Origin: Ostrinia nubilalis
Taxonomy: Eukaryota > Arthropoda > Insecta > Lepidoptera > Crambidae
Assembly: GCF_963855985.1 (NCBI RefSeq)
Contig: NC_087092.1
Location: forward strand, 2,418,001-2,482,000
Direction: 5' to 3'
Length of the DNA stretch: 64,000 nt
Position numbers and translations under genes: made by a program. A model generated the notes under the pieces. The model was not told the origin of the DNA. It did not search any database and was given only the letters and a program-made list of their open reading frames with translations. Positions 2,166 to 54,545 of the stretch are shown piece after piece. Positions within the stretch are counted from its first letter, which is position 1, and each line of letters opens with the position of its first letter.

Positions 2166-4129
2166 ATATACATAAATAGACTATTACGAGTATAATATGC
2201 GTAAGCTTTACTATGTTTGTACAGTCGACAACACATTGCAAATGTATATTTTGTTGCAAAATAACACTTATTACGACTGCTGAAGAAGCCTCAGTGTTTG
2301 TCTTGTTGTCTCTACAATTGAGCTTTAAAGAAGATTTCAAAGATTAACTGTTGGCCAATTTTGTGATGCTAATTGAATATTGCTAAAGCTGTCAATCAGA
2401 AATATGACGTATTGAATGAATAATCAATATCATCATCGTTTTTAGCCAATAGTAGCATGAACTGTAATGTAAGATTACCTGCAATAAAATTCTTTAGATT
2501 TTTTTATAACCACAGCCACATGATAAAGAAAACACAGCTGACAATTATTCTCCCTATAAGTAAAACAACAAATTAAGCGAACAATAAAGCAACAAAGAAA
2601 ACAATAAACTATACACCCAATACAAAGTTAATAAAAAAACTATTGAAATTCCATTTCCTTTTATTGATAGCGTAATAAAGTAACAGGTGTGTGACACGTC
2701 CTCCGTCTACGGCGATTACAATGCATCTGACTGTTAACCGTCTTTCTTTGAATGTGGAACAAAAAATGGGCCAATCAGCAGCTGTCGCGGCTCGTGCGCC
2801 GGCGCATGGCAAAGGCGATTAGGGTTAATTTTTTGTAGGGATGTGCATTTGGATTAAGGGTTTATCGGTATGCGATGGAACAGCTGATTTTTTTTGTAAT
2901 ACAAAATTTAGCCCTTTTATGTTAAGCGGATCAGACTCTAGAACTGTAATAATGATATTACCAATAATTATATGAATCCAACGTGCTCGCGTGTGAGGCG
3001 CGAACTGTGTAATTCGTTCCATTTAAAAATAAACACTTGTTAGCAGCAGATCCAGGTGCTTAAACACCACAGTTTTCTCTATAGGTCTAATACTTACTAT
3101 TAAGGAAGCAATAAAACATATTGAGTATTGAGTACTAAAATGTACATTAACTATTGACAGCATTGAAGGAATGACTCTTATAGTGCGAGATTTGGAATGT
3201 CATTACCGAAGGAAGGAATGACAGTAATATTGATGACAATGTACACTCCGACGACTGTACATGAAGATGACAAGATGCGTAATATTGTCACATCTCAATA
3301 AATTAGATTTTATTTATTTACATAAGCTTCGAGTCGTAGTCGTTACGCTTTTTATATTAAAATGACGAGTCCATTTATAATAATTACGGTCTTGACACTT
3401 TTCAATTGCCCCATCACATGCAACTCGTAAGTAAAATAAACATTGTGTAACTAACTACAGTAAATAGGTGTTTTTATTACGACAACGATGCTATTCATAG
3501 AAATAGAATCGATATTATTTTATAATTTTTCGTCTATACGAGCACATCTTGATTTATATCTACGTCTTTATTATTCGACAATCACTTGAATTAACTTAGT
3601 GTTACATACTTCAGAAAACTCCAAGCTCAGATTTGAAAAATACTTTTTAACATTTTAGTACAAAATAAAATACTTGACCACTACGTAATTAATAGAAATT
3701 AATTTTCACTGTACAACTTCCAAGGACCAATTTCATACAAATTTTACGCAAGCCTAATCATTCAACTGATTATGCCCGAAGGCCTCTAATAATGACTACA
3801 TTCAACTAAATTGTGACCAACTTAAATTATGCTCTAAGCGAATTAGCCATTAAGGTATCGAACCTGCAATCAAAGATTAACCTAATTGCGTTTGCAAGCA
3901 GTAGGAAGTTACGTAACGTATGATTTAACTTTGACCTGCATGGTGTGTGAATCGATTGGATTCATAGATCTCACATGGGTATTAAGCACTATCACTTTTA
4001 TTTCATAAATCAATGGAGCATGAAATCCATTTATCGCAACATGCACTGTGAAATTTTGAGAATTATCATTTTGTGAGTTGACATAATATTCTCTCATCAT
4101 TATTTTTTTAGCTACAAGATGTCCTCTGC
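2166..4129. other. Intergenic, no gene seen
   Basis: AT-rich DNA without a convincing coding region, RNA gene or repeat. The short open frames here have no recognisable protein signature. A GC-rich word at about 2785-2810 (GTGCGCCGGCGCA) recurs at about 4418-4428. Confidence 0.4.
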
Positions 4130-4250
4130 TAAACATAGTCCTCCCCCAATAATAAAATTTCCAGATTGACGGGTTGGTAGCGGCCTGCATCCAGCGCCTT
4201 CCTGCATCCAGTGCTACCTTTATGAACAATATCCTTATCTGTGTCATGTT
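4130..4250 (-). mobile_element. RTE-type LINE 3'-end fragment
   Basis: Read on the minus strand, the short open frame includes the residues RRWMQAATNPSIWK, like the extreme C-terminus of RTE-clade ORF2 proteins (compare RWTQAATNRSTWKALGEAYV at 23262-23444). The DNA contains CCTCCCCCAAT and GTAGCGGCCTGC, shared with 23290-23340 and 59350-59405. Heavily decayed, with no catalytic domain. Confidence 0.6.
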
Positions 4251-4359
4251 TTTTTTTAAATAAAAAGTTTCCAAATTCGAAATGAGAATAAAAAAATAAA
4301 TGCAATTCGACTCACTTTTCAATAAAGGAGAGAAGGAGTTTCGATTCGGCCCGCATTTT

Positions 4360-4445
4360 TTGTGGTTGAATGAAATTATAACGGGGCCTGCTATGTGTGC
4401 GGCAAAAAGCTGACAGGTGCGCCGGCGCAGGGCCGCAATTGTTGG
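4360..4445. repeat. Dispersed duplicate, copy 1
   Basis: Similar to 4905-4992: both contain TTTTTGTGGTTGAATG, then TATGTGTG, GGCAAAAAGC and GACAGGTGCGC. Two same-orientation copies about 550 bp apart suggest a short element or a local duplication. No coding signature. Confidence 0.45.
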
Positions 4446-4904
4446 CTTGAAGTAAAGTCGGTTTATGGAACTTGTTGGCACGTGCGAAGAAAAAGATCGA
4501 GAATTTTACTTGATGAGGAATTGAGGATAATTGTTGCAAAAATCCATCGTCTTAGCCGATTGTTTTATTGCAACAATATTTCTGCAAGTCAAATCAAATA
4601 TTTTTACTGTAAAAGATTGGTAAATTCTTACTACATTGCTTATTAACGAAGATTGAAGCGACCAAAGCTACTTTGGAGATTCAAGTCCTACTTGGGGCAC
4701 TTTTTAAAGTATTAGTAATAATATTGTGATAATGACATTAATTTATTTATGCTGCCTAGACTTTATGCTCTTAGATGCACAATTCCAGTCGTCTTTTCCG
4801 ATTCGAAATCTACTCAACATAAGTCATTGAATGAATCATACTTGTATAATATAACTCAATTAAATCAGTTCTTTAAAATATGGCATTAATTTGCCCACTT
4901 CAAT

Positions 4905-4992: not shown

Positions 4993-7039
4993 GATACGAG
5001 CACAAACGCCCGTAACGGTGGCCGGTAATGTACTCATTTTATACGGGCTATTAAGTTCTTTTTCTTTATTGATCTGGAGGTGACGTTGATATGAGACTTG
5101 ACTGCATTCGAAATTTAAAGATTTCATGGATTTTTTTTAAATCAAAGTGCAATGAGTTCGAATAGCTCAGGCTCGATTTCCACCACAGCGCAGATAAGAC
5201 ATGTTTTTTTCAAATTCAAATTATTTATTTGCAGAATGTGGTACATTTTGATAAGCAACCAATAGAATTTAGTTATTTACAAGTCTCGTCTTCGCTTAGC
5301 TTCAGTGTAAAGGCTAAACTAGAACTCCCCTTGAAAACAGTCCATAAAAGCCTTCAAAAACTTGGGACTGGCCCACTCTACCATAGATACATTTTAAAGA
5401 GTGAAAATTGTTTTGTTTAATCCTGGTGTGAAACCCAAGAGCTGCCATAAGTATTTGCCACGGCTCAATCACTGTTTTAAAGGCATTCCCGGATTAATTT
5501 ATATCGTATCTATGCAAGTAATTTCTTACTTAAATTGTAGTATTTAATCTAAAACAACAAAACCCACGCCTGCACTTTCAACCATACCAGTTATAAACAA
5601 ACAGACGGCCGTTCATAAACAACATTTGCCTACCAATTATTATATTTTAGCTCAAGTCAGTGCGTTTATGGGCAATGATGCAGTAATAAATGGCCGCAGC
5701 GTGGGTGGCGCGTCAGGTGCATTGAAACTGATTTGTGCGAACTGGCCGCAATGGAATGAATTTTTAAACTCTAACGAAACGAAACGTCTTAAACGAAAAG
5801 AATTGACACCTGCCACGTCTATTGGTTTAAAAAAAGAATTTCAATTTTAAATTGGGTTCCAGGAATCGCACGTGATTCTAAAATCAAACTTTGGCATCTA
5901 GACAATTGTAACATTTTTTGACAGATTATATTTCGGAGTCGTTTTGCTACGTTCTTATTTGATAAACATTTTATATGAATGTCCGAAAAACTTTAATAGA
6001 TTCTTATCTTCAAGAACTGAATGCATTTTGTTAGACATTAGTTATTTGTAGATTTTAAACTCAATGCACTTAGACATTACGAGTAGGTATTTGTTATTGA
6101 TTTTGAGTCCGGTGACTTTGTGACGTAGAGTGGTCGTATCGATTCGAAACCGAATGCTACATTGTCTACACTCACTGAACCTACAAGTAGGTACTTAAGA
6201 AAATCACCCAAAAATCTCCTAAAACCTGCACACATCCTTACGAAAGTAACAACCATTACGTTTCTTTGTTCCGTGTTCCATTGAGTATTAAACCGTAGAG
6301 ACGACACGTCAAGCGAAACACTAAAGCATCTTATGTAGTTACAATAGGGGTGGTTTTTGAACAAAAATGTACCTACATTCTGATCTGCTGTCGGTGCCTT
6401 CGTAAAGGAGTTTGCTCAACGCGGTTAATGAATGCGAGGCTACAGCGCGGTAATGAATGTTTGCGAGCAGAACACTGCTCACAACAATAGTTTTGCAGCG
6501 AGGATATGCCACTGCTGGATGTGGCTTAGACAAAAAGTAAATAAATGAAGATAATCGGGGTCTTTTCAAGGCGAGACTGAATAGGCAGTTACAGGGCAGA
6601 TATGTACCATCCTAGACTGCATCTCACTTAACACCAGGTGCGAATGCGGTCAAATACCTGCCTTGTCTTGCATAAAAAAAAAAGAAAACAAAATGGCATC
6701 ATGGACTCAGGGTTTTATCTTCTTTTGTTTTTATCCAACTATGTAATTTTTCTGCACAAGTTTTATTTTGAGTTGATAAGTAGCTCGAAGTGTTGTTACT
6801 TAGATACTATGATTACCTGCCATCTGATCAGTATTGCTAAAAGCTTACAAGTTTGTGAATATTTTTAGTTAAAAATAGTGACGACTAGCCGACTTTATGA
6901 CTAGTAGTAAGTAAGCTCTACTAGGCGTCTTTTTTATGGAGCTAATGAATAAATTACACTATTTTAAACCAAATAACAAACACAATCAAGCAGGTCGAAT
7001 CTCGCTATCATGGGTCGGTCATCAAAAGCAATAAGAAGC
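4993..7039. other. Intergenic, no gene seen
   Basis: Several short open frames (for example 5626-5850, 74 codons) show no domain, repeat or compositional signal I recognise. No RNA gene or transposon ends are visible. Confidence 0.4.
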
Positions 7040-24282: not shown

Positions 24283-25684
24283 GTAAGTCTTCTCCGGGTG
24301 ATAAAACCTTACTATTTATAACTCTATCGATCGTAAGATTTATTTCAAAGATACTTTATGACATATAGATTACGAGATACGAGATTATTATTTCAAGATT
24401 GTTATTGAATAGTTTTTCTTTCGTAGAAAATTTTTATCTATGTTTCACACCATCTGTATAATAAAATATTACTGTCTTAAGTATTACTAATCCATAAGTT
24501 ACTCTATGATTGATATAGTAACAATCAACCGAAAATACCAATAATAGTGTTGAAGAAGCAATGATGCCTTTTCACTTTTTAAATTCATTTGTGTTAAGTA
24601 TTATTATTGAGAAACCCAAATACTTAATAAAGTTACATCGATTATAATGTTTAAGTTACATCCAATATATTATGTTTACTTATGAAAATAGAATCTACTC
24701 GTACCTAATGTCTAGACTTGTTTACTCAATGTACAGTCACGGAATGAAAAGGTTCGTCAGTTTTCAAATTGATTCCTTCAACGAATCGCGAGCACATATT
24801 ACCTTTTGAAACTATGTTACAGAATAATCTCGAGTTAGAGAAAATAATCTTTAACTGTTCGTCAGTAAAGTTCAAAATTATTCAGATCAATGTTGTTTGA
24901 CGATTTATCTTGTCAAGAAGGTTATTATGATTGATAAACTAAAACCTTCTTGTTGGTTCAATCTGCCATTATTATTTCAAAAACTATTGTCAATTGGTCA
25001 ATGTCATCATTGCATTGCACTGATGGGATAGAAAAATAAACAAGCAAAACCTTATTCGTTAGCAAACGTCATATTTATTTAAATGTTAGCAGCACTGTTT
25101 CTTGCACTGTTATGTTGGCAGGTTTGACTCTTACAGTACCTAGTACAAGCGAAAACCGACACTAAGGTAACGAACCTTTTCATTCCGCGACTGTACATAG
25201 TTTGATGCCTATCATGTTTTCTATCTACATCAATCATTATACATCAAAAACCCTATTAACTAAAGGATTTCATAAGTCACAAAAATAGCGCGTAACAAAG
25301 GAACATGAAGCTCATATTAGTCAATATGCAGAATTACTATTTGTAAGTGAGATCCGAGAAATCCTTTGTTTAGTCTGAAAATAGCCTCTTACAATGTACG
25401 TTAGTTTATAGTCTGCTCGGTTTCGTTCGTTATATCACTCTGACACTTGCAATGTTTCAATACCTACTCATTTTGCAATAAATGTAGATCAATAAATTAA
25501 AAAAACTGTTAGAAAACCAGCCAGTCACAAAAATTATGAAGAAAATACCGACCGATTGTCATTTGATTCCATTATTTCGTTCTAAAATCAAATTGATTCA
25601 AATTATGTTCTTAAAAATATATTCCTTTGTCAAGTTTCGGTGATGGATTTAAGAAAAAGTTGCAAATTAAATTCTGAGCTACCT
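24283..25684. other. Intergenic, no gene seen
   Basis: AT-rich; no coding region, RNA gene or transposon end recognised up to the TIR unit. Confidence 0.4.
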
Positions 25685-25931
25685 CCCAGATAGCAAGCGA
25701 ACTTGCTGCAAACATGATTTTTATTTGAAATTAGATTGTCACGTCAAATATGACAAATCAAGTTTGTGGCAATATTGCTGTAAGCTTTTTGATTTAGGTA
25801 TGATGTTTCAAGGCTTTTTTAATTTTGAAGCAAGTTTGCATTTTGCGCTATGTTTCAAAGATGAAGTATCAAGTTTGTTTTTTGTTTGTTACAAACTTGC
25901 GTTAAACTGTCATACGCATGGAGCAAATAAT

Positions 25932-26401
25932 CAGTGTTGCCAGAAGGTTACTTTTGTAACCTTTTAGGTTACTTTTGAACTGCATTGGTTACTTTTAGGT
26001 TACACTAATGAAAAGGTTACTTTTAGGTGATTTTTCAGAAATTGTAGAATTAACTTTTACAGGTTATTCAGTAAAAATATTAATAGTGACAATTTAAAAA
26101 TTATGTCATAAACTGCATTTAAACATGAATTTGATTTATTATTTGTTAAAGACAATGAGTTTTAGCAAATGTTTTTTTGATAATAAAACGCAAATCCATG
26201 AAACGGTTTTATACGACCGGTCACTTTTCGGTCTTCATGGAATGGTCAAAATTTCGAATTTAGGTAAACATGTGAACCATCCATGAACAACCTTACACAA
26301 CCTTACACAATCCCCCCCGTATGAAGGTTACTTTTTATTCAAAAAGGTTAAATTTTTTTATATTTCTGGTAATTTCTGACAAGACCCGACTGGCAACACT
26401 G
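25932..26401 (+). mobile_element. hAT-type MITE (470 bp), copy 1
   Basis: Ends CAGTGTTGCCAG and CTGGCAACACTG, flanked by an exact 8-bp duplication CAAATAAT (25924-25931 and 26402-26409), as for hAT elements. Repeated GGTTACTTTT words fill one end; a C7 run lies near 26312-26318. A second copy lies at 48715-49186 in the opposite orientation. Non-coding. Confidence 0.9.
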
Positions 26402-28399
26402 CAAATAATCACTAGTGGTCATACGCCAACGTCACTCGCCCGAAGCCATAAAAAAGAAAACAAAAACTTCCGGTTCCGGAAGAAAAAACAGCCAAGTGTT
26501 TGTTTTGCACTTTTGCAGCATACTCTCTAATCTGTGTTTTGCAGTGCACAAAATCAGTGGTAGAACGTAGAACCTACAAGTTTTTTTTGTTTTGCACGGT
26601 GTTTTATTTAATAAACGCTTCTGTTGTGCGAATTGGACGCGTGACGTGCTGAAGATTAAAGGTTAGTTCATTTATTTTTACTTTTACAAACGGAATTAAT
26701 GATAATATGTAGTTCATATCTATCCCTTAAACCTTATTTACCTACTTTCAAACCCAGGCAACGTGTTCCAAGTGTTCCTAACCCTAAATAGTTCCTGCAT
26801 GTTCGATCCTGTTTAGTTATGCATATTACTCAATATCTATTTCTAATTATCTATGTGTAACAGAAAGGTGTTATTGTAAGTTGTAAATGTACATCGTGGA
26901 CCCTGTCTTGCACTGCAATTGGAAAATAATACATAAATAGAACGTCTAAAATTAACAAATATCCTCTAATAAAATAAATTAATTGCTGTACAGTGACTGA
27001 CATTGATGGAAAAGTCATAGTTTTTCCTTTCAATAATTATCATGTTGCTATGAAAATGCTACACTCATAGCACTTCAAAATTGTAAATGTAAATATAAAA
27101 TACCCCCTAAACATCCTATCCACCTTATCATGTACTTTTATCCTACCTCGTTTAATTCTTAAAATTGTTAGTTATGTCTTAGCAAAGGTAACATAAATTT
27201 CCTCCTACATACCTATCTATTATATTACCTATATAATATAATTATAATTAATAGTGTTATTTGGTTTCAGACTTTGCATAATGGAATCAAAAAAATTTTT
27301 TTTGGTTACATTTTTAGATGAAGATGATGCTCCTGGCATAGTTTCATCAAAGTGGTTAAGATACCAACACTTGTTATTACCCTAATGTATGCACTGAAGA
27401 AATCAAAAACAAACTTGAAGAAGATGCCTGCACCTGAAGCAACATGGTCACAATATCAAATAAAAATACTTAAAAGTTATGGTAAAATAATTTTCTTTAT
27501 TTTTGTATTGCTAAGTTATAACTAGATTTTACTATTGTGAGACTTTTTTATTTATTTCAGAAACTTATGGCGAAGCACGATTACATTTAAAAAAAGCGGA
27601 AGAAACCTGAAATTTGGACTCAGACGAAGCAGAAAATGATGTTACAAATGAAGTGACAGTGGACATAATGTCTGCTGTAAATTACCCAGTCACCTCCGGT
27701 TCTAAAGAGGCCAAGCAAACACAACTCAAAGCTGTTAACTGCCAATCAGGTAACAGGTTTTTATAACATGCAATGAGCTTCTCTCGTCAAAGATGCAATG
27801 CGACAAAATTTCATATTTTCACTTGTTTTAGTTATGACTTTTCCATGTTTTTTTATTTGTTACAGAGTGCATTACAAACAAGCAATATGCTATACAGCAG
27901 AGTCATACGATTCAGATTGTGTCAGACCTAGCTAACCAAATGGCTGAAATCAATAGAAAATTGGATTTACCGTTAGCTAGGTCCGAAGAAACATTTTCAC
28001 CAACAGATGACAATGCAGGTCTTTCAGAACTTTTGGCAAGTCTACCAGTAAAAGATATTGCAAGCTTTAATAATTTCGATGACCATTTAAAAATAAACAA
28101 GAATACAGGCAATAGTATGTATAAATGAAATACTTAAACACAGGGCAAATTTTATTATTCTATGAAAACATTCTAATGCTACTTTAATTAAATTTCAGAT
28201 GTCATTTTTGTCTGGTATTGGCGGCAGAAATGTAAGAAGCCTTACGACTAATATGTTGAGACGAATAATTCTAGATGATGTAGCCGAGTTGTATTCGTTA
28301 ACTGGGAAACAGATGAAAAATTCGAATAAAAAGTCATTTATGAGTACAGAAACCTATAAATTAATCTTTCGTAAGTACCTTTATTTTATTACAAACTTA

Positions 28400-28586
28400 T
28401 ACAGGGTGTAAATGAATTCATAGGCAACCTTGCAGGGGGTGGCTCAGACCATCATTATGAACTTTTCCTATGACCAATTTTTCCTGTTTTCATACAAAAA
28501 CTGATCACGAAAATAAAGTTGTTCATAATGATGGTCTGAGCTTCCCCCTGCAAGGTTGCCAATGAATTCATTTAGATACACCTGTA
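28400..28586. mobile_element. TACAGGTG-type MITE in an intron
   Basis: Left TACAGGGTGTAAATGAATTC, right end complement of TACAGGTGTATCTAAATGAA; the long arms include GGCAACCTTGCAGGGGG and ACCATCATTATGAAC. It lies wholly in the intron between 28370 and 28668 of the DUF4806 gene. Confidence 0.7.
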
Positions 28587-28805
28587 TATCTCTCAATATA
28601 CCTACTACTATTATTTTCTGAATCATTCGTGTTTGTTAGTGTTAATTATTTCTATTTTATTTTTCAGAAATATGTAGAAAAATCAACGAAGATGTAACTG
28701 AAGACAGTCTAAAAGAAATTATAAGTGATTGGCTAAATCAAGCTAAAGTTAGACTTTCAAAAAGGTAAGATTTAATTTATTTACATTAGATGTATTTTAT
28801 TTTAC

Positions 28806-29014
28806 ACTAGCGACCCGCCCCGGCTTCACACGGGTACATGTATTATACATATGTATAAAACAAAGTTGCTGTCGCTGTCTGTTCCTATATACATTATGCT
28901 TAAATCTATAAAACTATGCAACGGATTTTGATGCGGTTTTCAACAATAGTTAGAGGGATTTATGAGAAAGGTTATATAATAGAACCCCATACGAATCCGG
29001 GGCGGGTCGCTAGT
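28806..29014. mobile_element. Fold-back repeat CTAGCGACCCGCCCCGG in an intron
   Basis: ACTAGCGACCCGCCCCGG at the left and its complement CCGGGGCGGGTCGCTAGT at the right, about 209 bp apart. The interior GCAACGGATTTTGATGCGGT recalls the Helitron-like families of the window. It lies in the last intron of the DUF4806 gene. Confidence 0.6.
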
Positions 29015-29439
29015 TATACATATATTACATTATTATTACACAAGGGACAGACAGACAGCGACTTTCTTTTATACTATGTACCTAGTGATTTACAAATTTT
29101 AGATGTGCTCCTTTCAGAATTTTAACTAATAACCCCTTACCCTTATAGTAGTTTTTAAGGATTACTATAAATATATTTATTTCAGACATAGTTCATAATT
29201 TTGTTAGTAGTACAGAAACTTATACAATTAAATGTAAAATAATGTCTTAACCTGTGGTAAATATACTTGTTTCTTTTTGTTTCAGAGCAGAAACACAAAA
29301 TAAAGAAAAAAACCAATAGCGGCGACCATGAAACCGATTTTTTCTCATTTAAAGTAAGATAAGATAAAAGTATAAATAATAAAAAAATATATTATGTTAT
29401 GTTTGTTGTTTTATTTAATGTCAAACATGCATATTCATT

Positions 29440-29610
29440 GCAAGTTTGTTAAGGCAAACTTACATATTATTTATAGAAGCAGACATAATGCAAGTTTGTT
29501 AAGGCAAACTTACATATAATTTATAGAAGCAGACATAATGCAAGTTTGTTAAGGCAAACTTGCATATACTTTATAGAAACACATTAATGCAAGTTTGTCG
29601 CTCGGAAACT
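29440..29610. repeat. Four ~50-bp tandem units, CAAGTTTG subterminal repeat
   Basis: GCAAGTTTGTTAAGGCAAAC starts at 29440, 29490 and 29540, with a shortened fourth unit at 29589. Each unit holds an internal dyad (CAAGTTTG...CAAACTT). It lies just downstream of the DUF4806 gene and within the right end of the TIR unit, where transposase-binding repeats would be expected. Confidence 0.8.
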
Positions 29611-29744
29611 AGAAAGTTTGATTTAAACTTGCCTCAAGTTTATATACTTGCCATGGCAAATTTGAAACAAAGCTTCATTTTTGATACATCAAACTTACTG
29701 CAAGTCAGATTCAAGTTTAAATTGTTATCTGGGCTTATTTTAAC

Positions 29745-30649: not shown

Positions 30650-31905
30650 TCAAAAGTTATTAAAATATTCATCTAGGTTATAAAAACATTTCTGCAACAA
30701 CCATTCTTTCAATTTCTGTTTGAATTGCGGGTTTTCTAGTGCTTTTATACAGTTAGGCAAATGGTTAAACACTCGAGTTCCTGTAATCAAGGTACTCTTG
30801 CTATAAATATAACTTGATGATTTCAAAATACAAATGTTATAAGCATGTTGAGATCTAAGATTCTTTTTAATTTTACTTTTTTCACAGAAATGATCCTTAT
30901 TATTCTTTACAAATACACATGTTTCAAGTATATAGATACCCGTCAAAGTCAGAAATTTATAATCTTTAAATACATTTCTCAAAGTTTCATATTTGTCAAT
31001 GTGGTACATTACGCGAAGGCATTTCTTTTGAAGTATAAATGTCGATTGAACATTAACAGAGTTGCCCCAGAATATTATGCCATATGTCAATAGAGGATAT
31101 ATGTACCCATAGTATGCGTTCTTAGTTACATTTTCTGAGGAAACACTGCTTAAAATCGACAAGGCATAGCAACCACTTGACAATTTTTTATTTATTGTCT
31201 CGATATGTGCCTTCCAGTTCATATGAGTATCTATATTTAAACCTAAGAATTTTATGTCAGGCACTTTTTCTATTAATTTATTGTCAATTTTAATACTTAA
31301 TTCTAGTGGATCATTTTTATAATTTCTAAATTCTAATAATTTGGTTTTCTCTAGATTTACAGTTAAATTTATAGATTTTAACCAGTCAATAACAATGTTT
31401 AGTGTGTTATGAATTTCACCAACAAGTTCGTCATTTTTTGCTCGGTCTTGTGACATAAACAATGTAGCATCATCCGCAAACATGACACAGGAATGATTTA
31501 TAATCAGGGGAAGTTCATTGATGTAGATTAAAAATAATAAAGGCCCCAGTACACTGCCCTGCGGTACACCAATGGATACTTTATCGTAATTGGATTGCAC
31601 TGTTAATATACTTTTCGTTTTTTTGTCATATGTATCCAATATCGTGGACTGCATTCTATTTGTCAAATATGATTCCATTAATTTTAGGGCAATACCACGT
31701 AGTCCTACATGTTCAAGTTGCTCCTCTTTTTTTACGTTTTCTACAAAAATAAGCTGCGATTTTATATCCGTCAATTTGAAGAATGTCCATTTCATGGCAT
31801 TCTAAAAAAGTTTCACTAAAGCAGCAAACATCTACCTATATGTCTTTCATGCAACAATATCTCTAGTTGATCTATTTTTGATTTTATACTTTGTGTATTT
31901 AGATG
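30650..31905 (-). pseudogene. LINE ORF2 remnant: endonuclease start fused to RT
   Basis: From 31905 downward the translation begins NIIHLNTQSIKSKIDQLEIL, the start of an APE-type endonuclease. A 4-bp insertion near 31830 shifts the frame; a SETFLECHEMDILQIDGYK block follows (the E in S-E-T is a usual catalytic residue). Near 31720 the endonuclease stops and the sequence jumps to EHVGLRGIALKLMESYLTNR in the second half of the RT. Present: GVPQGSVLGPLLFLIYINEL and the catalytic FADDATLF near 31480. Missing: the rest of the endonuclease, the fingers and palm motif A. The 381-codon frame 30650-31795 is open but starts out of frame with the endonuclease. Non-functional. Confidence 0.8.
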
Positions 31906-31907
31906 AA

Positions 31908-32436
31908 TTATGTTAAAAATAAATTCTCCTTTGCTTGTGAGAAAAAATTTTGTGATTCATCTAAGTTTGATTTAGCTTGTCCTACTGATTTATTAACCTT
32001 ATTTCCATCGCATCGTTTAATTTTTTGGAAATAGTGTAGAATAATGTTCTGCAAATATTGTGATTTTTTTATGTCATCGGTAGTATTTTTTGTTGTTAAT
32101 GTATTGTTTCCTTTAAAGTAATGCGTAATTGGTTTCTGTTTTGTTGTTTTAATATATTTATTTATGTTTTTTCTGCAATCTTTATTTTTATTTTCAAATA
32201 GAACATCAATGAACTCCTTTTTGTATCTAGGGAAGTCTATCTCTATGTTTATTTTAAAAGCAAGCATGTGTAAGTAAGAGCTTAAACCATAGTAATCATT
32301 CTTTATGTCAATAAATGTACAATTATTATATTTTTTCGTGAGCATGTCAATTTCATAATTCAATCTATTAGTATTTAAATATTTGTTGGATTTAACACTT
32401 ATAACAAAACATTTACAATAGTGAAATTTGCATAAT
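31908..32436 (-). pseudogene. LINE ORF1, C-terminal part
   Basis: Continues the esterase-like ORF1 interrupted by the BEL element: from 32436 downward LCKFHYCKCFVISVKSNKYL, then a lysine/asparagine-rich tail ending at a stop at 31908. The stop overlaps the first codons of the ORF2 endonuclease, as expected for a bicistronic LINE. The open frame that runs to 32501 takes its first codons from the BEL LTR and is artificial at that end. Confidence 0.65.
32432..32436. repeat. Target-site duplication of BEL, left
   Basis: ATAAT immediately before the left LTR; the same five bases follow the right LTR at 39864-39868. BEL/Pao elements usually make 4-6 bp duplications. Confidence 0.9.
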
Positions 32437-33344
32437 TGTTGGGGACGACTCGCCGAGAAGGAGGAAATCGGCGAAATAGTGGCGCGAACGAATGCGTACA
32501 CCGTTGCGCGTAAACTGTAAATGTGTATGTTTTGTATGTTAATTATTGAATATTTAAGGTTTTAACATGTATTTGATGGTCTCTGTAATAATATTAAATA
32601 GCTTGATATATAATTTATGGAAATAATAACCGTTTATGTAAGTTACGTAAGTAAAGATGGAAAATGATGAATAATTCTTTATAGAAGATGTAATTTACTA
32701 AGGGCTAAGTTAAATTGTAATATATAAGGAAAGACGAAACCTATGTACTACTTTTTACATGAAAATAATAAAGAGGACACCTATTAATTAAGGAAAATAG
32801 ATAATTAAGAATAAGAAGATAGGGAATCGCTTAGGAGTGAGCGAGATAGGCATGTGAGCGCTCACGGACGCGTCTGTCTGAGAGGGAGGGTTTGAAAGAG
32901 AGATAGCCTACATTCGGGCATGGCGATTGGTGTAGATTAAGGGCGATTGCCGCGACTAAACCCTCGCTCTCAGACAAGACATAAGAAGCGCGCCTCGAGC
33001 CCAAAAGGTCAGTTCGTCAGTTCAGTTCGTGAATCCAGTCAGTCCAGTGCAGAGGAATCGGAATAAGTGCGAGTCGAGCTAAGCTCCTCCTAAACGCGAC
33101 GCGGTTGCCCTATTCGAACGGGCAAAGTGTAGTGTAGTTCTAGACTTAAGGACAGGACCTACATAGTGTTAAGTGAAGATTTGTGAATTTGTGAAGTGAT
33201 AAAAGAAGCTATACAGTCCATTGTTTTATTATTTAGAAGCTATCGATGAACGGTTGGCGGTTCGAGCTCCGCCGATCAGACCCAGTGCACGCACCGTCAC
33301 ACCGAGCGGCTACTTCAGATCCCAACAGTGGGCGGTCGTGCACA
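32437..33344 (+). repeat. 5' LTR of BEL/Pao element
   Basis: 908 bp, TG...CA ends. A TATATAATTTAT word near 32605 and AATAATAAAG near 32765 are candidate promoter and polyadenylation signals; CAGTTCGTCAGTTCAGTTCG near 33010-33030 could be an initiator region. These assignments are inferences. Confidence 0.93.
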
Positions 33345-33530: not shown

Positions 33531-33587
33531 TCATAGTTGGAACCCTACGGACGACAAGCACTTAGAACCCGATCATCAACTGGAACT

Positions 33588-36500
33588 ATGGTGGTTACCC
33601 GGAGCCAAGACGGCAGGGAACCCGCGGAGGAGCAGCCGAGAACGCGACAAGCCACGCTGAGGCGAACGTTCGCGGAGCCGCCGCAATCACCTTCGACTGG
33701 ACCACTACGAGAAGAGGGTCAAGAAATGGAACCCCCGAGAGGAGAGGGGCAAGAAAGAGAACCCTCACGAACAGAGGTGCCAAGAACTGTGACCATACGT
33801 GCGCCATCAGTGAGGTCAACCTCAAGTGCGACCGCCAGGATAAGAGCAGCGGAGATCGCGGCAGCGGAACGGTTGGCTGCGATTAGAAAGAAGGAACTTG
33901 AACTCGAAGCGGACCTTATAAAGAAACGTTTGGCCGCCGAGATCGAAGACATTCAAGAAGAAGAGAGAGTTGCGAGCGAAACCGGCGACCACGCACACGA
34001 GCGGGTCGAAGGCTGGCTACGCGAGCAGCCGATTGCGACCGCGACAACTACGACGCGTGTTGAGGATACGGGAGCGCCACGGGGGGAGCCCCCCGATGAG
34101 GGGCGCTACTCAAGATCGCCGACGCGGACGCCTGCGCGGGAACGTCAAAGAAGCAGCGGGCGCGCTATCGAACAACTAGCAGAAGCCATCAGAGATATGG
34201 CTTATCGGCCGGGGAGACAGGAATTGCCAATATTCAGCGGAGCAGCAACGGAGTGGCTTCCGTTTAGAGCGGCAATCCGTGATTCCGGGATTTTAACGAA
34301 GGGAACACCGGCCGACAATCTAGCAAAGCTGCGGTCAAGTTTAAGGGGAGAGGCCAGAGAGGTCGTCGCGGCTCTACTTTACACTGCAGCAGATCCAGTA
34401 TTGATAGTGAGAACGCTAGACCAGTACTATGGAAGGCCAGAGCACATAATAGATCGTGCGCTGGAAGAGATCAGACATCTGCCGAAACCAGGAGCCGCAG
34501 CAATGGATCTCAACAAGTTCGCTATCAAGCTCCAGAATATCGTATCGATTATTCAAAACATCGATAACAGTGGATATTTGATGAACCCTATGTTGGCGAG
34601 GGATGTCATTGAGAAGCTCAATCCTCACACACGGACGAGGTGGTGTGACTTCGCAGCGGACAGGAAGCGGCCGGGGGAACCAGACATCGTAGCACTGTCT
34701 CGCTTTCTAATGGAAGAGGCGGACAAAGCGATGATGTACTCATATACGCCGATGGCCTCCGGTTCCGGAACACAAGCCTCAACTTCGAAGCCGCCAGTGA
34801 AGAAAAGTGCGCGAATATATAACGCGAGTGAAACGACCGCACGCAATGACAATAATGGACAAGTTAGTGACAATAAAAGACAAATAAAGTGCGTGTGTTG
34901 TGGTGGAGATCACGTAGTGCCAGACTGTGATCGGTTCAAAGACAAAAGTGATTCGGATCGGTGGGAACTGATAAGGAAGTGCCGATTGTGTTTCCTGTGC
35001 CTAGTGTCCACTCATAGACGGCAAAACTGCAAAGCCCGTCCCTGTGATCATTGTGCTAGACCTCATCACCACCTGCTGCACGCGGACCGGAGAACTACGC
35101 CTGTGCAGGAGACCGTCGTGACTGCGACCGCAACTACGGATCGGCAGGTACTTTTAAAGATGTGTCCGGTGTCTCTAGGAGAGGTAAGGACCTACGCCCT
35201 TCTGGACGAAGGCGCTACGGTCTCACTGATAGACGCTGACCTAGCGAAGTCGCTAACCAAGGGCGGGACGCCGAGGCCCATAACCATCAAGGGGGTCAAT
35301 GCGACAACGAAAGAAGAGGCCAGCCGCGAGGTACAGTTAAACATAAAGGGCCGGTTCGAGAATGAGGAGCACGAGCTGGTGTTGAGAACAATAAAGAACT
35401 TCGAGCTGACACCTCAGACAGTATCAGGCCGTGTATCGAAGTACCCGCACTTAAAGGACATAGAAGGTCTGACCTATGGAAAGGCGAAGCCACAGGTCCT
35501 AATAGGGGCCGATCATTGGGACTTGCTCGTGGCCACCGACGTGAGACGAGGAGCAAAGCACGAGCCAGCGGCAACTAGGACTCCGCTGGGATGGGTGGTC
35601 CATGGGATCCTGCCGTTCAGGATGATAAAGAAGAACGGTGGAACGGTGCTCCACATCGTGGACAACCTAGAGAAGATAGTGGCTTGGAATTTTGAAATGG
35701 AGGCGCTCGGTGTGGGTGTGAGGAAGGCCACCAAGCCCGCCGAGGAGAAGGCCGAATCAACGTTTAGAGAGACAGTGCGCAGAACGCCAGACGGGCGCAT
35801 CGAGGTAGGGTTAACCTGGAAAGAAGGAAATGTTACCCTACCTCCAAGCTACAAGGAGGCGCTGAAGAGACTCGTGAACCTCGAACGGCGGATGGACCGG
35901 AATCCGACATTTAAATCAAGTTACGAGCTGCAAATAAGAAGATTAATAGAGAAAGGATATGTGGAACCCGTGACACGACTAGAAGAAGAAAAGAGGTGGT
36001 TCCTTCCGCATTTCGCGACGGCAAATTTGAACAAACCAGAGAAGATACGCCTGGTTTTTGACGCTGCAGCTCAAAGCGACGGACGGTGCCTGAACGATTA
36101 TTTACTGGAGGGGCCTAACCGTCTAAATGACTTACCCGGCATCTTGTACCGCTTCCGAGAGGAAGAAGTGGCAGTTTCCGCTGACATCGCAGAAATGTTC
36201 TTACAAGTGCAGGTTCGAAAGGAAGACCGGCCTGCGCTGACTTTCCTGTGGCGGGGGGAGGATCGAACGAACCCGCCACAGCGATATCAGTTCAAGAGGT
36301 TAATATTTGGCGCAAACTGCTCCCCCTTTTTAGCACACAGTGCGCGAGACTATAACGCCGAATCTTTTAGAAAGGAGCACCCCAGAGCATATCGGGCCAT
36401 CACCCACTGTCACTACATGGATGATTATATAGATAGTTTTAAAACAGAAGAAGAGGCGAGTGAAGTCGCTGAAGAAGTCAACTCGGTACACGAAAGAGCG

Positions 36501-38924
36501 GGTTTCAACCTCAGGTGTTGGAGCAGCAATGCCACAGGAGTGCTAAAAACATTGCCGGTCGAAAAGCTAGCTCGAGAAGAGGATGTCATCTTAACAAATA
36601 GACCAGAGGCCCCCGACAAAACACTGGGCATGATCTGGCACCCTGCTACAGACCAGATAGGGTTCAACACAAGGATGGCACGGGTGCCAGCCGAGATCAA
36701 GGACGGGATGAAGATACCAACCAAGCGACAAACACTAAGTCTGGTAATGTCTCTCTATGACCCACTGGGACTAATTAGTCCGCACATACTGACTGGAAGA
36801 ATTATATTAAAAGATGTGTGGAAGTCAGAAATTGATTGGGACCAAGAACTGGATGCGCCTGAAGCCCAAGAAATAAAGATTTGGCTCGGCAGGCTCGACC
36901 AATTGGCGGAGATTAAAATCCAAAGGAAGTACGATAAATTGCGGGAAACGGAAGAGGGCGAACTACATATGTTTTGCGACGCGAGCGAGCAGGGTTATGC
37001 AGCAGTGGCATACGCGCGCTTCCCAAAGAAGAACGGAGGCGCCGGGGTGAGCCTGCTCGCCTCCAAGGCGAGAGTGTCGCCAAAGAAGACCCAGACTATC
37101 CCAAGGCTGGAGTTGCAGGCAGCAGTGATCGCAACCAGACTCGCGGTCTCCCTGAAGCGGGAGCATCGATTGCGGTTCAGCCGGACCTTCTATTGGACCG
37201 ATTCCAGCACCGTCCTGCATTGGATAAGGAATGGCGCCAAGCTGGAGCGACAGTACGTGCAAGTAAGGTTGGGAGAGATCCAAGAAGACTCCGAACCCCA
37301 AGAATGGCGCTGGGTCCCCACCGAAATGAATGTCGCCGACGAGGCGACCAGGAAGAAACTGGACGGGGAGGTCATAACGACGACTTGGCTCAACGGTCCC
37401 GAGTTTCTGAAAGACCCGGAGGCCTCATGGCCTGAACTGGAGGAGCGAGCGGTGCACACGGCGCAAGAGGAGCCACATGACACCCTCATAGACATGAGCA
37501 GATTCTCCAGCTATGAGAAACTTGTGAGGACGTTGGCGTATGTATTGCTCTTCATCCAAAGAGTGAAGACGAAGAGCAAAAGAGAACTGGACGTGCATCA
37601 CCTGGAAGGCGCGGAGAAGATCCTAACCATCATGGCGCAACAGGAGAGTTTCCCCAAGGAAGTAAAAGAATTGAGGACTGGAAAGCCGATTCCAAAGGAA
37701 AGTCGACTATTCGCGTTGGACCCTGCGATGCACGAGGGCATCATCAGGATGAGGGGTCGCATACAAAGAGCAGCAGTCGACGAGGATGTGAAAAGGCCGA
37801 TCATCCTAGACAGAAGGCATCAGCTGACGAAGTTGCTGGTGAAACATTACCACGAGCGGGCTCTCCATGCAAACAATGAGAGAGTCGTGAACGAGTTGCG
37901 GCAAAAGTACGCAATACTGGGGCTGAGAACGGTGGTTCGCTCAGCGGCACACTCGTGCCAGCTTTGTCGAATAAGGAAGGCGACACCGCAGCAGCCAATA
38001 ACTGGAGACCTACCTGATTCCCGACTGAAAGACTTTCAGCGGGCCTTCACTCACTGCGGAGTGGACTACTTCGGCCCGATGCTAGTGAAGATCGGGCGCC
38101 GTCGAGAGAAGAGGTGGGGTGCACTCTTCACGTGCCTCACCACGCGAGCAGTGCACATTGAGTTGGTACCTTCCCTGAGCACCGACTCTGCAATCATGGC
38201 GTTGCGCCGGATGGCGGCGCGACGAGGATGGCCGGCAGTGATCTGGTCCGACAATGGGACCAACTTCAGGGGCGCGGACCAGGAACTGCGAGCAGCGTTC
38301 AAGGAGTGGCTGCCGGAGCTGAAGGATGCGGCTCTCACACAGAGGGTCCGATGGCAGTTCATCCCACCAGGCGCTCCGCACCAGGGCGGTGCGTGGGAGC
38401 GTCTGGTCAGGAGCATCAAGGTGGCATTGGCCGCCACGCTGCGCGAGCGGGTACCGAGCGAAGAGGTACTCGCCACATTGCTGAGTGAGGCTGAGCATTC
38501 AGTCAATTCTCGCCCACTCACCCACGTCTCGGTTGATCCGCGAGATCCCGAGGCCCTCACCCCTAACCACTTTCTGTTGGGGACATCATCGGGTCTACCC
38601 CTAACGGGCCCGACAAGCGCTGACGAGAAGAGGCTTTGGCGCGCGACGCAAGCGCTTGCCGACGCCTTCTGGAGGAGATGGTTGCGCGAGTACCTCCCTA
38701 CCCTGGTACCGCGCGGCCAATCGCAGAACCAGCAGCGACAACTAGCCCCTGGCGACCTTGTGGTCGTTGTGGACCACGCCCTACCCCGAAACACGTGGCC
38801 GCGAGGCGTCGTGGAGCGAGTTTGGCCGGGGCCTGACGGAGCAGTACGAGTGGCGGAGATCCGGACCAAGGGCGGCGTCTTCCGACGCCCCGTGACTCGG
38901 CTCGCCGTGCTGAGGATGGAGTAG
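33588..38924 (+). CDS. BEL/Pao Gag-Pol polyprotein, intact
   Basis: The ATG at 33588 (MVVTRSQDG...) gives 1778 residues; the same frame is open to a TTG at 33537. Domains in order: charged coiled-coil-like Gag N-terminus; DUF1759-type Gag core (LPIFSGAATEWLPFRAAIRD, about 210); Cys/His knuckles (CVCCGGDHVVPDC, about 434); aspartic protease with LLDEGATVSLID (about 538); reverse transcriptase with SADIAEMFLQV, FGANCSPFLA and HYMDDY (about 942); RNase H (FCDASEQGYAA, about 1129; YWTDSSTVLHWI); integrase zinc region (HYHERALH...CQLC); D-D-E core (GVDYFGP about 1491, SDNGTNF about 1554, GGAWERL about 1601); C-terminal DUF5641-like region (LWRATQALADAFWRRWLREY). All catalytic motifs are present and there is no stop or frameshift, so the copy could be autonomous. 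The protease has D-E-G where D-S-G or D-T-G is most common. Confidence 0.95.
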   Translation: MVVTRSQDGREPAEEQPRTRQATLRRTFAEPPQSPSTGPLREEGQEMEPPRGEGQEREPSRTEVPRTVTIRAPSVRSTSSATARIRAAEIAAAERLAAIRKKELELEADLIKKRLAAEIEDIQEEERVASETGDHAHERVEGWLREQPIATATTTTRVEDTGAPRGEPPDEGRYSRSPTRTPARERQRSSGRAIEQLAEAIRDMAYRPGRQELPIFSGAATEWLPFRAAIRDSGILTKGTPADNLAKLRSSLRGEAREVVAALLYTAADPVLIVRTLDQYYGRPEHIIDRALEEIRHLPKPGAAAMDLNKFAIKLQNIVSIIQNIDNSGYLMNPMLARDVIEKLNPHTRTRWCDFAADRKRPGEPDIVALSRFLMEEADKAMMYSYTPMASGSGTQASTSKPPVKKSARIYNASETTARNDNNGQVSDNKRQIKCVCCGGDHVVPDCDRFKDKSDSDRWELIRKCRLCFLCLVSTHRRQNCKARPCDHCARPHHHLLHADRRTTPVQETVVTATATTDRQVLLKMCPVSLGEVRTYALLDEGATVSLIDADLAKSLTKGGTPRPITIKGVNATTKEEASREVQLNIKGRFENEEHELVLRTIKNFELTPQTVSGRVSKYPHLKDIEGLTYGKAKPQVLIGADHWDLLVATDVRRGAKHEPAATRTPLGWVVHGILPFRMIKKNGGTVLHIVDNLEKIVAWNFEMEALGVGVRKATKPAEEKAESTFRETVRRTPDGRIEVGLTWKEGNVTLPPSYKEALKRLVNLERRMDRNPTFKSSYELQIRRLIEKGYVEPVTRLEEEKRWFLPHFATANLNKPEKIRLVFDAAAQSDGRCLNDYLLEGPNRLNDLPGILYRFREEEVAVSADIAEMFLQVQVRKEDRPALTFLWRGEDRTNPPQRYQFKRLIFGANCSPFLAHSARDYNAESFRKEHPRAYRAITHCHYMDDYIDSFKTEEEASEVAEEVNSVHERAGFNLRCWSSNATGVLKTLPVEKLAREEDVILTNRPEAPDKTLGMIWHPATDQIGFNTRMARVPAEIKDGMKIPTKRQTLSLVMSLYDPLGLISPHILTGRIILKDVWKSEIDWDQELDAPEAQEIKIWLGRLDQLAEIKIQRKYDKLRETEEGELHMFCDASEQGYAAVAYARFPKKNGGAGVSLLASKARVSPKKTQTIPRLELQAAVIATRLAVSLKREHRLRFSRTFYWTDSSTVLHWIRNGAKLERQYVQVRLGEIQEDSEPQEWRWVPTEMNVADEATRKKLDGEVITTTWLNGPEFLKDPEASWPELEERAVHTAQEEPHDTLIDMSRFSSYEKLVRTLAYVLLFIQRVKTKSKRELDVHHLEGAEKILTIMAQQESFPKEVKELRTGKPIPKESRLFALDPAMHEGIIRMRGRIQRAAVDEDVKRPIILDRRHQLTKLLVKHYHERALHANNERVVNELRQKYAILGLRTVVRSAAHSCQLCRIRKATPQQPITGDLPDSRLKDFQRAFTHCGVDYFGPMLVKIGRRREKRWGALFTCLTTRAVHIELVPSLSTDSAIMALRRMAARRGWPAVIWSDNGTNFRGADQELRAAFKEWLPELKDAALTQRVRWQFIPPGAPHQGGAWERLVRSIKVALAATLRERVPSEEVLATLLSEAEHSVNSRPLTHVSVDPRDPEALTPNHFLLGTSSGLPLTGPTSADEKRLWRATQALADAFWRRWLREYLPTLVPRGQSQNQQRQLAPGDLVVVVDHALPRNTWPRGVVERVWPGPDGAVRVAEIRTKGGVFRRPVTRLAVLRME

Positions 38925-51635: not shown

Positions 51636-54545
51636 TTTTTTTTTTCATTTAATTTATCTTAATTTTAATTTGGTCACTTTGCAGAGTGTCTAAAATATGC
51701 TTTTTAAATCTTGAGGAACTCTGGGAAAAATCGATGCTATTAAAGTTCTGGTTGTAAATGGACAACAGTCTGTTGAGTGGGGCTCGTAAACCCGCATTGG
51801 TTTTACACAAGTCTACATAAAAGGTTCTCTCGTCTCTGCGTGTGCTTCTGAGCGCAGCACGCCTGGGGACGCTAAAGTGGATCAGGTTACAGAGGTCTAT
51901 GCAATCGATTTCATTATTTATTAGATTGTATAAAAACATGGCTGATAGGAGCAATCGTCTAGAATCAAGGCTCAAGAACTTAAATTTGGTTAGCAGCATT
52001 TCGTAAGGGACCCGGGAGCGGGAACACATGAAGTTAACTTTGCGTAAGAATTTACGCTGGACTTTTTCAATGGAGTTGGAGTACTTCTTGTAGAATGGGT
52101 TCCAAACCGGCACAGCATATTCGAGCTGGGATCTTACAAGCGAACGGTACAAATGCAATAATGTGTTGGGTTTTTTAAAATTAACTGCAGACCTGGAAAC
52201 GAAACCATACATCTTGAACGCTTTGTTGATTATATCATTGATGTGGATGTCCATGTGAAGTTTTGAATCCAAGAAAACACCAAGGTCACGAACAACTGAT
52301 ACTCTCTTCAGAGTATTATTGTTTAACTTGTAATCAAAGATGTAAGGGTTTTTCTTCTTTGTAAAGCTTATGCAGTTACATTTGGGGATGCTTAGGAATA
52401 ATTTGTTGGTTAAACAGTATTCACTTAGTGTGTCAAGGTCTGATTGAAGAAGGAAGCAATCATTGAGCGACTTAATTTCTTTATAGATTTTAAGATCGTC
52501 AGCGTACAGTAAAAATGATGTATGATTGAAGCATTTCTTGATGTTGTTGACGTATAAAAGGAATAGCAGAGGACCTAGAATGGACCCCTGGGGTACACCC
52601 GAAGTGACAAGAGTATCACCCGACACGAGTCCGTTAATTGCTATTTTCTGTGTCCGGTTAGAAATGTAGGAAGCAAACCAACGCAACAGGTCACCACGGA
52701 TCCCGTTAAACGCCAGTTTTTCTAGGAGCAATTTGTGGTCTACCTTATCGAAGGCCTTTTGGAAATCCGTGTATACTGCATCGACTTGTATCCTTCTATC
52801 CATACTAGTAAACAGATTATTTGTGAATAGTGTCAAATTGGAGGAGGTGGAGCGGCGTTTAACAAATCCATGCTGTTCCGGTATTAAAATGTGATGTAGC
52901 GATGGGTATACTTCATTGTGAACGAGTCGTTCGAAGACCTTCGACAAGGCAGACAGGACAGAGATAGGCCGGTAATTTTCCACGTTACGTGCGTCGCCAG
53001 ACTTTGGAATAGGAGTGACGAAAGCGCTTTTCCATACACTCGGGAAATGTCCCTCCTGCAAACATTTTTTGAATATGATGTGCAGAGGGGCACTGATCGT
53101 TTTGTATGTGAGTTTCAGGAATAATGGAGGTATTCCGTCCGGACCTTTACCTTTGGTAATATCGAGTGAATATAGTACTCTTTTAATATGATCCAGAGAA
53201 AAACTAATATTGGAAATAAGAAGGTCGTTATCGCTGTTATCCGAAAATTGTGTAAAATCAAGATGACCGAGTGTCGAAGGTTCGTAGACGGAACTAAAGA
53301 AGCTTGAAAACATATTACAGATCTCTCGAAGGTCACTTGAGCTATTGGTCTTGTAGAACATTGTAGAAGGGTAGCACGTGGTATTTTTACGGTTCTTTAT
53401 GTAAGACCAGAAGAACTTTGTATTAAGAGCTATGCTAGTTTCAACTCTATCAATGTACTTACCGTAACAAATTGAACATTGAGCCTTAAATCTTGATCTG
53501 TATATGGAAAAGGACTCGTAGTCTGAGAGGTTCCCGTACATTTTCCATTTCCGCCAAGCTCGCTCCTTATTGCTGTATATATGTCTCAGAGCTGGGGAGA
53601 ACCATATAGGAAAACGGGAGGACTTTACGTTTGTCAAGGGTATGTGATTCTTAATGATTTCGTGGATCCTCTCATAGAATACATTAACTGACTCTTCAGC
53701 AGTGAGATCCGATAACAATAACTCCCAGTTTACTTCGTTGATATTAATGTTAATATTATCGTAATTACCTTTGTGGAAGTTAGGTTTGGAGAAGTGATTC
53801 CTAGGCATATGTTTAGTTTTTAAATTTATAAAAGTAAGTGCGCAGAATGGAGGGTGATGTTGATTCGCGGGTACTATAGGAGAACAAGGACTCAGACTAG
53901 TCTCGGTATTGGATATGAGAAGGTCAAGAATACGGTCATTGGCGTTTTTCAACGAATTGAACTGTTTAGCATTCAATGTATTTAAGAATTTATAAAGATT
54001 ATAAGTAATAGAAGTAGGAGCACTAATAGGGGCAGCGAGTTGGAAATTAGACCAGTCAATGTGGGGTAGATTATAGTCGCCAATCATGAAAAATGACTCG
54101 GTACTAAGGTCGTTCACGAGGTCTTGTAATAAAGTGAAATGGTCTAAATATATGTCTATGGGGGTTTGCGGTGGGATGTAAACAGCACTAAAAATGTGTC
54201 TCTTGCCTGGGTCAAAGGCGGGTATAGATACAATAATATGTTCAATAGCTGAGGAGCAGTGATTTATAGGTGAATTGACCGGTTTAAGGTCCCTTCTCAC
54301 CGCAACAAGTACACCCCCTCCGTCACTTTTATTAGTCGCTAGTCGGTCGCGATCACATCTAAATACAATGTAGCGATTATCTAAGAATTCGCTGTTAGAT
54401 ATTTCTGGTATAAGCCATGTCTCCGTCAAAACCAAAATGTCATATGCCGCAGAGAGAACATTCATATAGACCGTGTGCAGTTTTGATCTAATTCCAGTAC
54501 AATTTTGGTAATATATTGTAAGATTGCTATCCATTCAACAAGAGC
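51636..54545 (-). mobile_element. Jockey-type LINE copy (ORF2 only)
   Basis: Minus-strand insertion: ORF2 start at 54534, stop at 51649, then only ATG and an A10 tail (T10 at 51636-51645). No ORF1 or 5' untranslated region is visible upstream of 54545, so the copy was probably 5' truncated close to the ORF2 start. No clear target duplication. It separates modules 2 and 3 of the transposase-like gene. Confidence 0.8.
51649..54534 (-). CDS. LINE ORF2: endonuclease-reverse transcriptase, intact
   Basis: 961 residues. The N-terminal APE-type endonuclease shows YYQNCTGIRSKL (N, about 10), LVLTETWL (E, about 38), SDGGGVLVAVRRDL, VYIPPQ, IGDYNLPHIDW (D-x-N) and a late ANQHHPPF block where S-D-H is usual. 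The reverse transcriptase shows GPDGIPPLFLK, PIPKSGDARNVENYRPISVL, VYTDFQKAFDKVDH (motif A Asp about 588), GVPQGSILGPLLFLLYVNNI (about 645) and LLYADDLKIY (catalytic YADD about 677). The C-terminal part has WNPFYKKYSNSIEKVQRKFL. Length and motif set fit the jockey group of non-LTR retrotransposons. The frame is uninterrupted. The divergent S-D-H position would weaken endonuclease activity if real. It nicks target DNA and primes reverse transcription in the nucleus. Confidence 0.9.
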   Translation of the reverse strand: MDSNLTIYYQNCTGIRSKLHTVYMNVLSAAYDILVLTETWLIPEISNSEFLDNRYIVFRCDRDRLATNKSDGGGVLVAVRRDLKPVNSPINHCSSAIEHIIVSIPAFDPGKRHIFSAVYIPPQTPIDIYLDHFTLLQDLVNDLSTESFFMIGDYNLPHIDWSNFQLAAPISAPTSITYNLYKFLNTLNAKQFNSLKNANDRILDLLISNTETSLSPCSPIVPANQHHPPFCALTFINLKTKHMPRNHFSKPNFHKGNYDNINININEVNWELLLSDLTAEESVNVFYERIHEIIKNHIPLTNVKSSRFPIWFSPALRHIYSNKERAWRKWKMYGNLSDYESFSIYRSRFKAQCSICYGKYIDRVETSIALNTKFFWSYIKNRKNTTCYPSTMFYKTNSSSDLREICNMFSSFFSSVYEPSTLGHLDFTQFSDNSDNDLLISNISFSLDHIKRVLYSLDITKGKGPDGIPPLFLKLTYKTISAPLHIIFKKCLQEGHFPSVWKSAFVTPIPKSGDARNVENYRPISVLSALSKVFERLVHNEVYPSLHHILIPEQHGFVKRRSTSSNLTLFTNNLFTSMDRRIQVDAVYTDFQKAFDKVDHKLLLEKLAFNGIRGDLLRWFASYISNRTQKIAINGLVSGDTLVTSGVPQGSILGPLLFLLYVNNIKKCFNHTSFLLYADDLKIYKEIKSLNDCFLLQSDLDTLSEYCLTNKLFLSIPKCNCISFTKKKNPYIFDYKLNNNTLKRVSVVRDLGVFLDSKLHMDIHINDIINKAFKMYGFVSRSAVNFKKPNTLLHLYRSLVRSQLEYAVPVWNPFYKKYSNSIEKVQRKFLRKVNFMCSRSRVPYEMLLTKFKFLSLDSRRLLLSAMFLYNLINNEIDCIDLCNLIHFSVPRRAALRSTRRDERTFYVDLCKTNAGLRAPLNRLLSIYNQNFNSIDFSQSSSRFKKHILDTLQSDQIKIKIN

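Follow-up and report, generated by a model that had tools for sequence, protein, structure and literature searches.

A 4,049-bp stretch (positions 25685..29733) of the 64,000-nucleotide window analysed here, C5:2418001-2482000 of the 495-Mb Ostrinia nubilalis assembly, is a non-autonomous copy, reduced by internal deletions, of a DNA transposon that has two genes and belongs to the animal TRC/EnSpm (CACTA-related) branch. One gene encodes a Transposase_21-type transposase, most of which is missing from the window copy, and the other encodes a protein with DUF4806, a Pfam domain (PF16064) for which no function is described. We put the probability at roughly 80% that this protein is the element's own accessory protein and binds the element ends, as TnpA does in maize; the linkage of the two genes is observed, and the binding is what we infer. 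A first-pass annotation of the window had seen a complete seven-exon DUF4806 gene and proposed that it could have multiplied as the cargo or the coding part of a DNA transposon not yet described.

The ends of the element are marked by CCCAGATA, which occurs at 25685-25692 (+) and 29726-29733 (-) and at no third place in the window. The inverted ends 4 kb apart were therefore correctly noticed, although such a pair by itself is within chance (shuffle mean 1.15; two or more in 31 of 100 shuffles). The terminal inverted repeats read CCCAGATAgCAA on the left (25685..25696, +) and CCCAGATAaCAA on the right (29722..29733, -), with a CT target-site duplication at 25683..25684 and 29734..29735. The dense words reported inside both ends do exceed chance: CAAGTTTG occurs 14 times in the window against 3.7 expected, a number reached in none of 100 shuffles, and 10 of the 14 lie within the element, nine of these in its two ends. 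Four of them, three direct and one inverted, form the left subterminal repeats (25759..25899), and their four distances from the end are identical in an 8,197-bp copy at C26. The right subterminal array (29439..29598) has a 50-bp unit, each unit carrying the dyad TGCAAGTTTG-TTAAGG-CAAACTT(A/G)CA, or TGCAAGTTTG-N6-CAAACTTGCA in general form. In the C26 copy CAAGTTTG occurs 11 times, counting both strands, and always within the first 215 or last 345 bp (four in the left end, seven in the right, none in the interior). For the shorter motif AAGTTTG, the ends of that copy contain 4 and 12 occurrences (shuffles give 0.12 and 0.17), and its 7.5-kb interior contains two, where 2.6 are expected.

A search of the genome with the start of the element, in which all counts are lower bounds, found the first 61 bases at 34 places, 29 of them at 100% identity. 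A 22-base end pattern, allowing up to three mismatches, matched the same 34 places and no others (33 of 34 exactly), and the reversed pattern, used as a control, gave no matches in the genome. The 33 other left-end places were fetched and compared with the window copy, two of the places being extended. Both ends lie within the stretch examined in 25 of the 34 copies; all 25 have CCC at both termini in inverted orientation, and 24 have identical 2-bp flanks (AT, TA, CA, AA, TT, CG, AG, AC, GT or TG, and CT in the window), the exception being L030 with AT and AA. Shuffling left against right flanks gave a mean of 3.7 matches and a maximum of 13 in 20,000 shuffles, and a 3-bp flank match was found in none of the 25 copies. 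One insertion, L018, sits in a common repeat for which uninterrupted paralogous sites exist. When its flanks were joined minus one AT, all 40 of the sites scored (from 2,709 candidates) matched across the junction at 91-99% identity. These uninterrupted sites and the flank duplications establish that the element inserts precisely, duplicating 2 bp at sites that share no fixed target sequence. The 34 left ends and the duplications in 24 of 25 copies make the element certain, and its designation as a DNA transposon was right. Substitutions relative to the window copy amount to 0.31-1.42% (30 copies, median 0.54%), L011 being the most divergent copy, and copy-to-copy divergence has a median of 0.40% (346 pairs).

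The C26 copy (L041 with L042) extends from CCCAGATAGC to TTATCTGGG and is flanked by AT at either end. The region that separates its left end from its DUF4806 gene contains a 690-codon open frame that starts with ATG. This frame sits within the region that appears as intron 1 in the window, so that the order on one strand is non-coding first exon, transposase, DUF4806 gene. Its product scores 30.8 bits against DUF1258 (E 2.8e-7) and 23.1 bits against Transposase_21 (E 4.8e-5), below the Pfam cut-offs of 33.1 and 28.6, respectively; the two families have been grouped among the RNase H-like transposases (PMC3985635, in the part of that paper available). A flea protein that bears the source name 'Putative enspm-4 hm' (P0017) is 57% identical to it. 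Residues D196, D276 and E519 are kept in 99-100% of the rows of a 117-row alignment, comprising the C26 protein and 116 of the 120 proteins examined in the search described below (the four with DUF4806 were left out), and are the probable catalytic triad.

In the window copy, about 2,554 bp (C26 positions ~1996-4549) are missing at a junction at 26991..26992, and with them most of the transposase. The last 23 codons survive at 26999-27067, inside the apparent intron 1; this remnant and its stop codon (26999..27070, +), DIDGKVIVFPFNNYHVAMKMLHS, match the end of the 690-aa frame of L041. The deletion is present in all 30 copies aligned across the site, counting the window copy, although in some of them its right border is displaced a few bases to the right, and a word spanning the exact junction occurs in 26 of the 34 copies. 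The remaining four are the whole C26 copy, L009 with a larger deletion, and L016 and L038, where the site was not covered. The choice between cargo and coding part is accordingly replaced by another description: DUF4806 is the second gene of a two-gene element, the transposase of which has been deleted in the window.

Between the element ends, a gene of seven exons with GT-AG borders can be traced on the forward strand. Its exons are a non-coding exon 1 (26498..26661, its 5' border guessed, with a GT donor after 26661 that is also found in the C26 copy), exon 2 (27271..27481, start codon at 27281), exon 3 (27561..27749), exon 4 (27866..28114, coiled-coil region), exons 5 and 6 (28199..28370 and 28668..28764, the first part and the remainder of the DUF4806/BEN-like domain) and exon 7 (29286..29319, stop codon TAG at 29317-29319). 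An intron also holds a foldback (28409..28574), a 54-bp inverted repeat with arms 94% complementary. The placing of exons, introns and stop inside the ends thus stands, but the gene is not complete: exon 2 has two frame shifts, exon 3 contains an in-frame TGA at 27608-27610, and an internal deletion has fused exon 3 to a later exon near 27629. Comparison with P0001, an O. furnacalis gene model, suggests that the undeleted gene has about nine exons rather than seven.

The exon-2 frame shifts and the exon-3 deletion are largely common to the sister copies, so that the window gene is one of a set of related pseudogenes. A 2-base frame shift in exon 2 is found in every one of the 31 rows that could be read apart from C26, the window copy among them, and a second shift, an 8-base gap relative to C26, in 30 of these 31, with a 6-base gap there in L011; L011 and L030 lack one more base of exon 2, in an A/T run. 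The exon-3 deletion removed about 526 bp (C26 positions ~5384-5909), with GAAG at both break points. Its junction is present in 31 of the 34 copies and absent in C26, and in L016 and L038 it falls outside the stretch covered. Splice sites are kept in the C26 copy. Since the copies have deletions and frame shifts in common and diverge little, a single deletion derivative with a broken DUF4806 gene appears to have been amplified recently to about 30 copies, presumably with both proteins supplied in trans.

The association of DUF4806 with these ends extends throughout the genome. The P0001 protein gave at least 175 exon matches (99 of 239 candidates scored), and among the matches listed each of the 34 left ends has DUF4806 exons downstream of it, with no left end (0/34) lacking the gene. 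At L016 (C25:5854735) and L038 (C10:11392321) the left end is separated from the exons by 11 kb and 7 kb, respectively, and because of these distances each is probably one interrupted element with large nested insertions inside. That the multi-copy state results from transposition is borne out in this genome, and the ends do not recur independently of the gene. The expectation that other DUF4806 genes share the same flanks applies to 34 of the 36 places of this clade among the matches listed; it fails at C30 and C19 and at three divergent genes. The latter, L044 (C12:13503522), L045 (C42:28025) and L046 (C2:14825709), are of other lineages, have by eye the motif C-x-W-(S/T)-G-(G/S)-(S/T)-R in common and are possibly domesticated. 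At C30 (L059, C30:2577800-2584000) a host gene with a zinc-finger associated domain (ZAD) is spliced to the DUF4806 exons of a truncated element. The ZAD-DUF4806 gene (P0002, LOC135086117 isoform X3, 429 aa, zf-AD plus DUF4806) is a chimera of host and transposon sequence that carries a new DNA-binding domain.

Other arthropods were represented by protein records alone, without DNA ends. With the transposase joined to P0001 as the query, 363 proteins matched, and four of the best 120, which were examined, matched both halves: P0014 and P0016 (Choristoneura fumiferana), P0066 (Ceutorhynchus assimilis) and P0067 (Callosobruchus chinensis). P0141 (Araneus ventricosus), one of 30 DUF4806 profile matches (from the best 7,996 candidates), also matches both halves. 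Such proteins number five of the 150 examined, which is not a rate, as a query containing both halves favours them in the ranking; the transposase comes first in every one, at 30-75% identity. The start of P0143 (Uloborus) resembles the transposase start by eye, a similarity not found by BLAST at 1e-3, and P0014, P0016 and P0143 resemble, by eye, gene models joined by splicing. Given the same order in a second moth, in two beetles and in a spider at such identities, the linkage of transposase and DUF4806 looks old.

The PF16064 cut-off of 25 bits is passed by P0001 (26.3 bits) but not by the window copy on its own (20.8 bits). The predicted structure of DUF4806 has the three-dimensional BEN fold; the predicted folded parts are the BEN-like domain, a helix and a small N-terminal domain, with no nuclease-like match. 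Identity to the BEN domain proteins BEND6, BANP, insv, Bsg25A, NACC1 and BEND3 is 9-23%, and these are host DNA-binding proteins, not transposon genes. Our literature search found no paper tying DUF4806 or BEN to EnSpm/TRC transposons.

The CCC ends, the 2-bp duplication and the Transposase_21/DUF1258-type DDE transposase of the full-length C26 copy place the element in the TRC/EnSpm branch, of which CCC ends, 2-bp duplication and Transposase_21 are the marks in animals (PMC1636069; PMC4298943; both as far as available). The type is therefore known, and in this respect the transposon is not a new one. The animal TRCs (SmTRC1 of Schistosoma and the TRCs of Tribolium and Aedes) are alike in all three features, and several proteins made by splicing have been reported for SmTRC1 (PMC1636069). 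The SmTRC1 inverted repeat is 54 bp long (PMC1636069), in contrast to about 8-12 bp plus subterminal repeats in the Ostrinia element. Its PrA and PrB had no detectable relatives and, in the part of the paper available, are not described as DUF4806 or BEN proteins (PMC1636069). Spongebob and EnSpm-4_HM, also TRC/EnSpm, resemble the Ostrinia element in their CCCAG... ends and 2-bp duplication; they differ in that a second protein goes unmentioned in the sections available, and the transposase of the Hydra element is reported as broken (PMC4298943).

A plant-type CACTA (En/Spm) element was rejected on the CCCAGATA ends and the 2-bp rather than 3-bp duplication; the plant elements have CACTA ends and 3-bp duplications. 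In maize En/Spm, the exons of the shorter protein lie downstream of the transposase, which is located in the first intron, and TnpA binds the subterminal repeats. The layout of the Ostrinia element, a multi-exon gene for a putative DNA-binding protein with the transposase frame in its first intron, resembles this by analogy. No BEN fold is known for TnpA, and no homology is claimed. Both elements have subterminal direct and inverted repeats and amplified, internally deleted derivatives, and both encode two proteins (tnpA and tnpD in maize; PMC1636069).

In the mechanism that we propose, transposase and DUF4806 protein probably arise from one transcription unit by alternative splicing. The BEN domain of the latter would bind the repeated CAAGTTTG words and dyads at both ends, and the protein would oligomerise via its coiled coil and pair the ends for the transposase. 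As a BEN-fold, coiled-coil protein encoded by the element itself, it is the natural candidate for an end binder. DUF4806 could instead be the second gene with another role, as a transcriptional repressor or anti-silencing factor at the promoter or as a factor for chromatin targeting. We regard this as unlikely, though not negligibly so, because the CAAGTTTG words stand at both ends of the element (four left, seven right, none inside) and not at the promoter end alone; a role both in end binding and at the promoter is possible.

It is considerably less probable that DUF4806 originated as a host gene and was taken up a single time, as passive cargo, by a non-autonomous element. The window alone does look like a cargo element, as do all examined copies except C26 in lacking the transposase, and the C30 chimera shows exon exchange with host genes to be possible. 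However, in the one undeleted copy the transposase adjoins DUF4806, and the same gene order in another moth, two beetles and a spider makes the linkage look old. In the chimera the ZAD exons are followed by a 5'-truncated element, an arrangement that suggests the opposite direction, capture by the host. That the DUF4806 protein alone moves the element, as a new kind of transposase, we effectively discount: the 30 copies aligned at the deletion hold only the C-terminal end of the transposase and all have DUF4806 exons, but C26 has a DDE-type transposase between the same ends, the predicted BEN-like, helical and N-terminal parts match no nuclease-like fold, and copies were amplified with a broken DUF4806 gene.

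Several observations weigh against the end-binding accessory protein that we favour, or limit its novelty. A transposase-bearing copy was seen only once, at C26, and its DUF4806 gene carries a frame shift, so that no examined copy has both genes open: the window copy is broken, and C26 combines an open transposase with a shifted DUF4806. Among the matches listed, two of the 36 places of this DUF4806 clade lack a left end; the C30 locus is a 5'-truncated element retaining the right half, and the C19 locus holds an older fragment, with no element ends in the 5 kb retrieved there. No clear transposase was found in the 3.2 kb around each of the divergent genes L044-L046, and these genes are so far not assigned to such an element. 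The tandem models of other species may be annotation fusions (P0067 also has an acyltransferase), in which case they would be evidence of adjacency only. The BEN matches found with Foldseek have weak E-values, at 0.03 and up, and the assignment of DUF4806 as a BEN subtype has already been stated (PMC11075544, citing Pan et al. 2023, in the portion available).

The window contains other mobile DNA. One 1,795-aa open frame at 33537-38924 (+) resembles by eye a BEL/Pao-type retrotransposon polyprotein, and a 961-aa open frame at 51649-54534 (-) appears by eye to encode the endonuclease and reverse transcriptase of a non-LTR (long terminal repeat) retrotransposon; pieces of a second, broken non-LTR retrotransposon were recognised by eye at 30650-32561 (-). 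A DNA transposase fragment at 55479-56024 (+) matches HTH_Tnp_4 with 26.9 bits (cut-off 27; E 3.6e-6), is Harbinger-like by eye and is unrelated to the DUF4806 element.

These results suggest that the multi-copy DUF4806 family of insects largely belongs to transposons. DUF4806 has been recorded as strongly expanded in Hydra, with 69 and 54 entries (two columns) against 0-6 in five others (PMC7642931), and as an enriched domain of unknown function in a beetle (PMC13270666), each in the part of the source available. The 2006 paper on animal CACTA-like elements, as far as its available text goes, found no relatives of the S. mansoni second proteins (PMC1636069). We lean, at slightly better than even odds, towards DUF4806 proteins of BEN type being the missing TnpA equivalents of animal TRC/EnSpm elements, in an old two-protein system of insects, spiders and perhaps Hydra and fish, in both of which the domain is also multi-copy. 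The DUF4806 genes dispersed among animals, the C30 ZAD chimera being one of them, would then be relics or domesticated offshoots. If DUF4806 is that second protein, expansions of the family would be transposon copies, and animal EnSpm elements would work with two proteins like maize En/Spm, using the BEN fold as end binder. The CAAGTTTG dyads would then be a predicted target sequence, testable in vitro, and transposons would be a possible source of BEN-type DNA-binding proteins.

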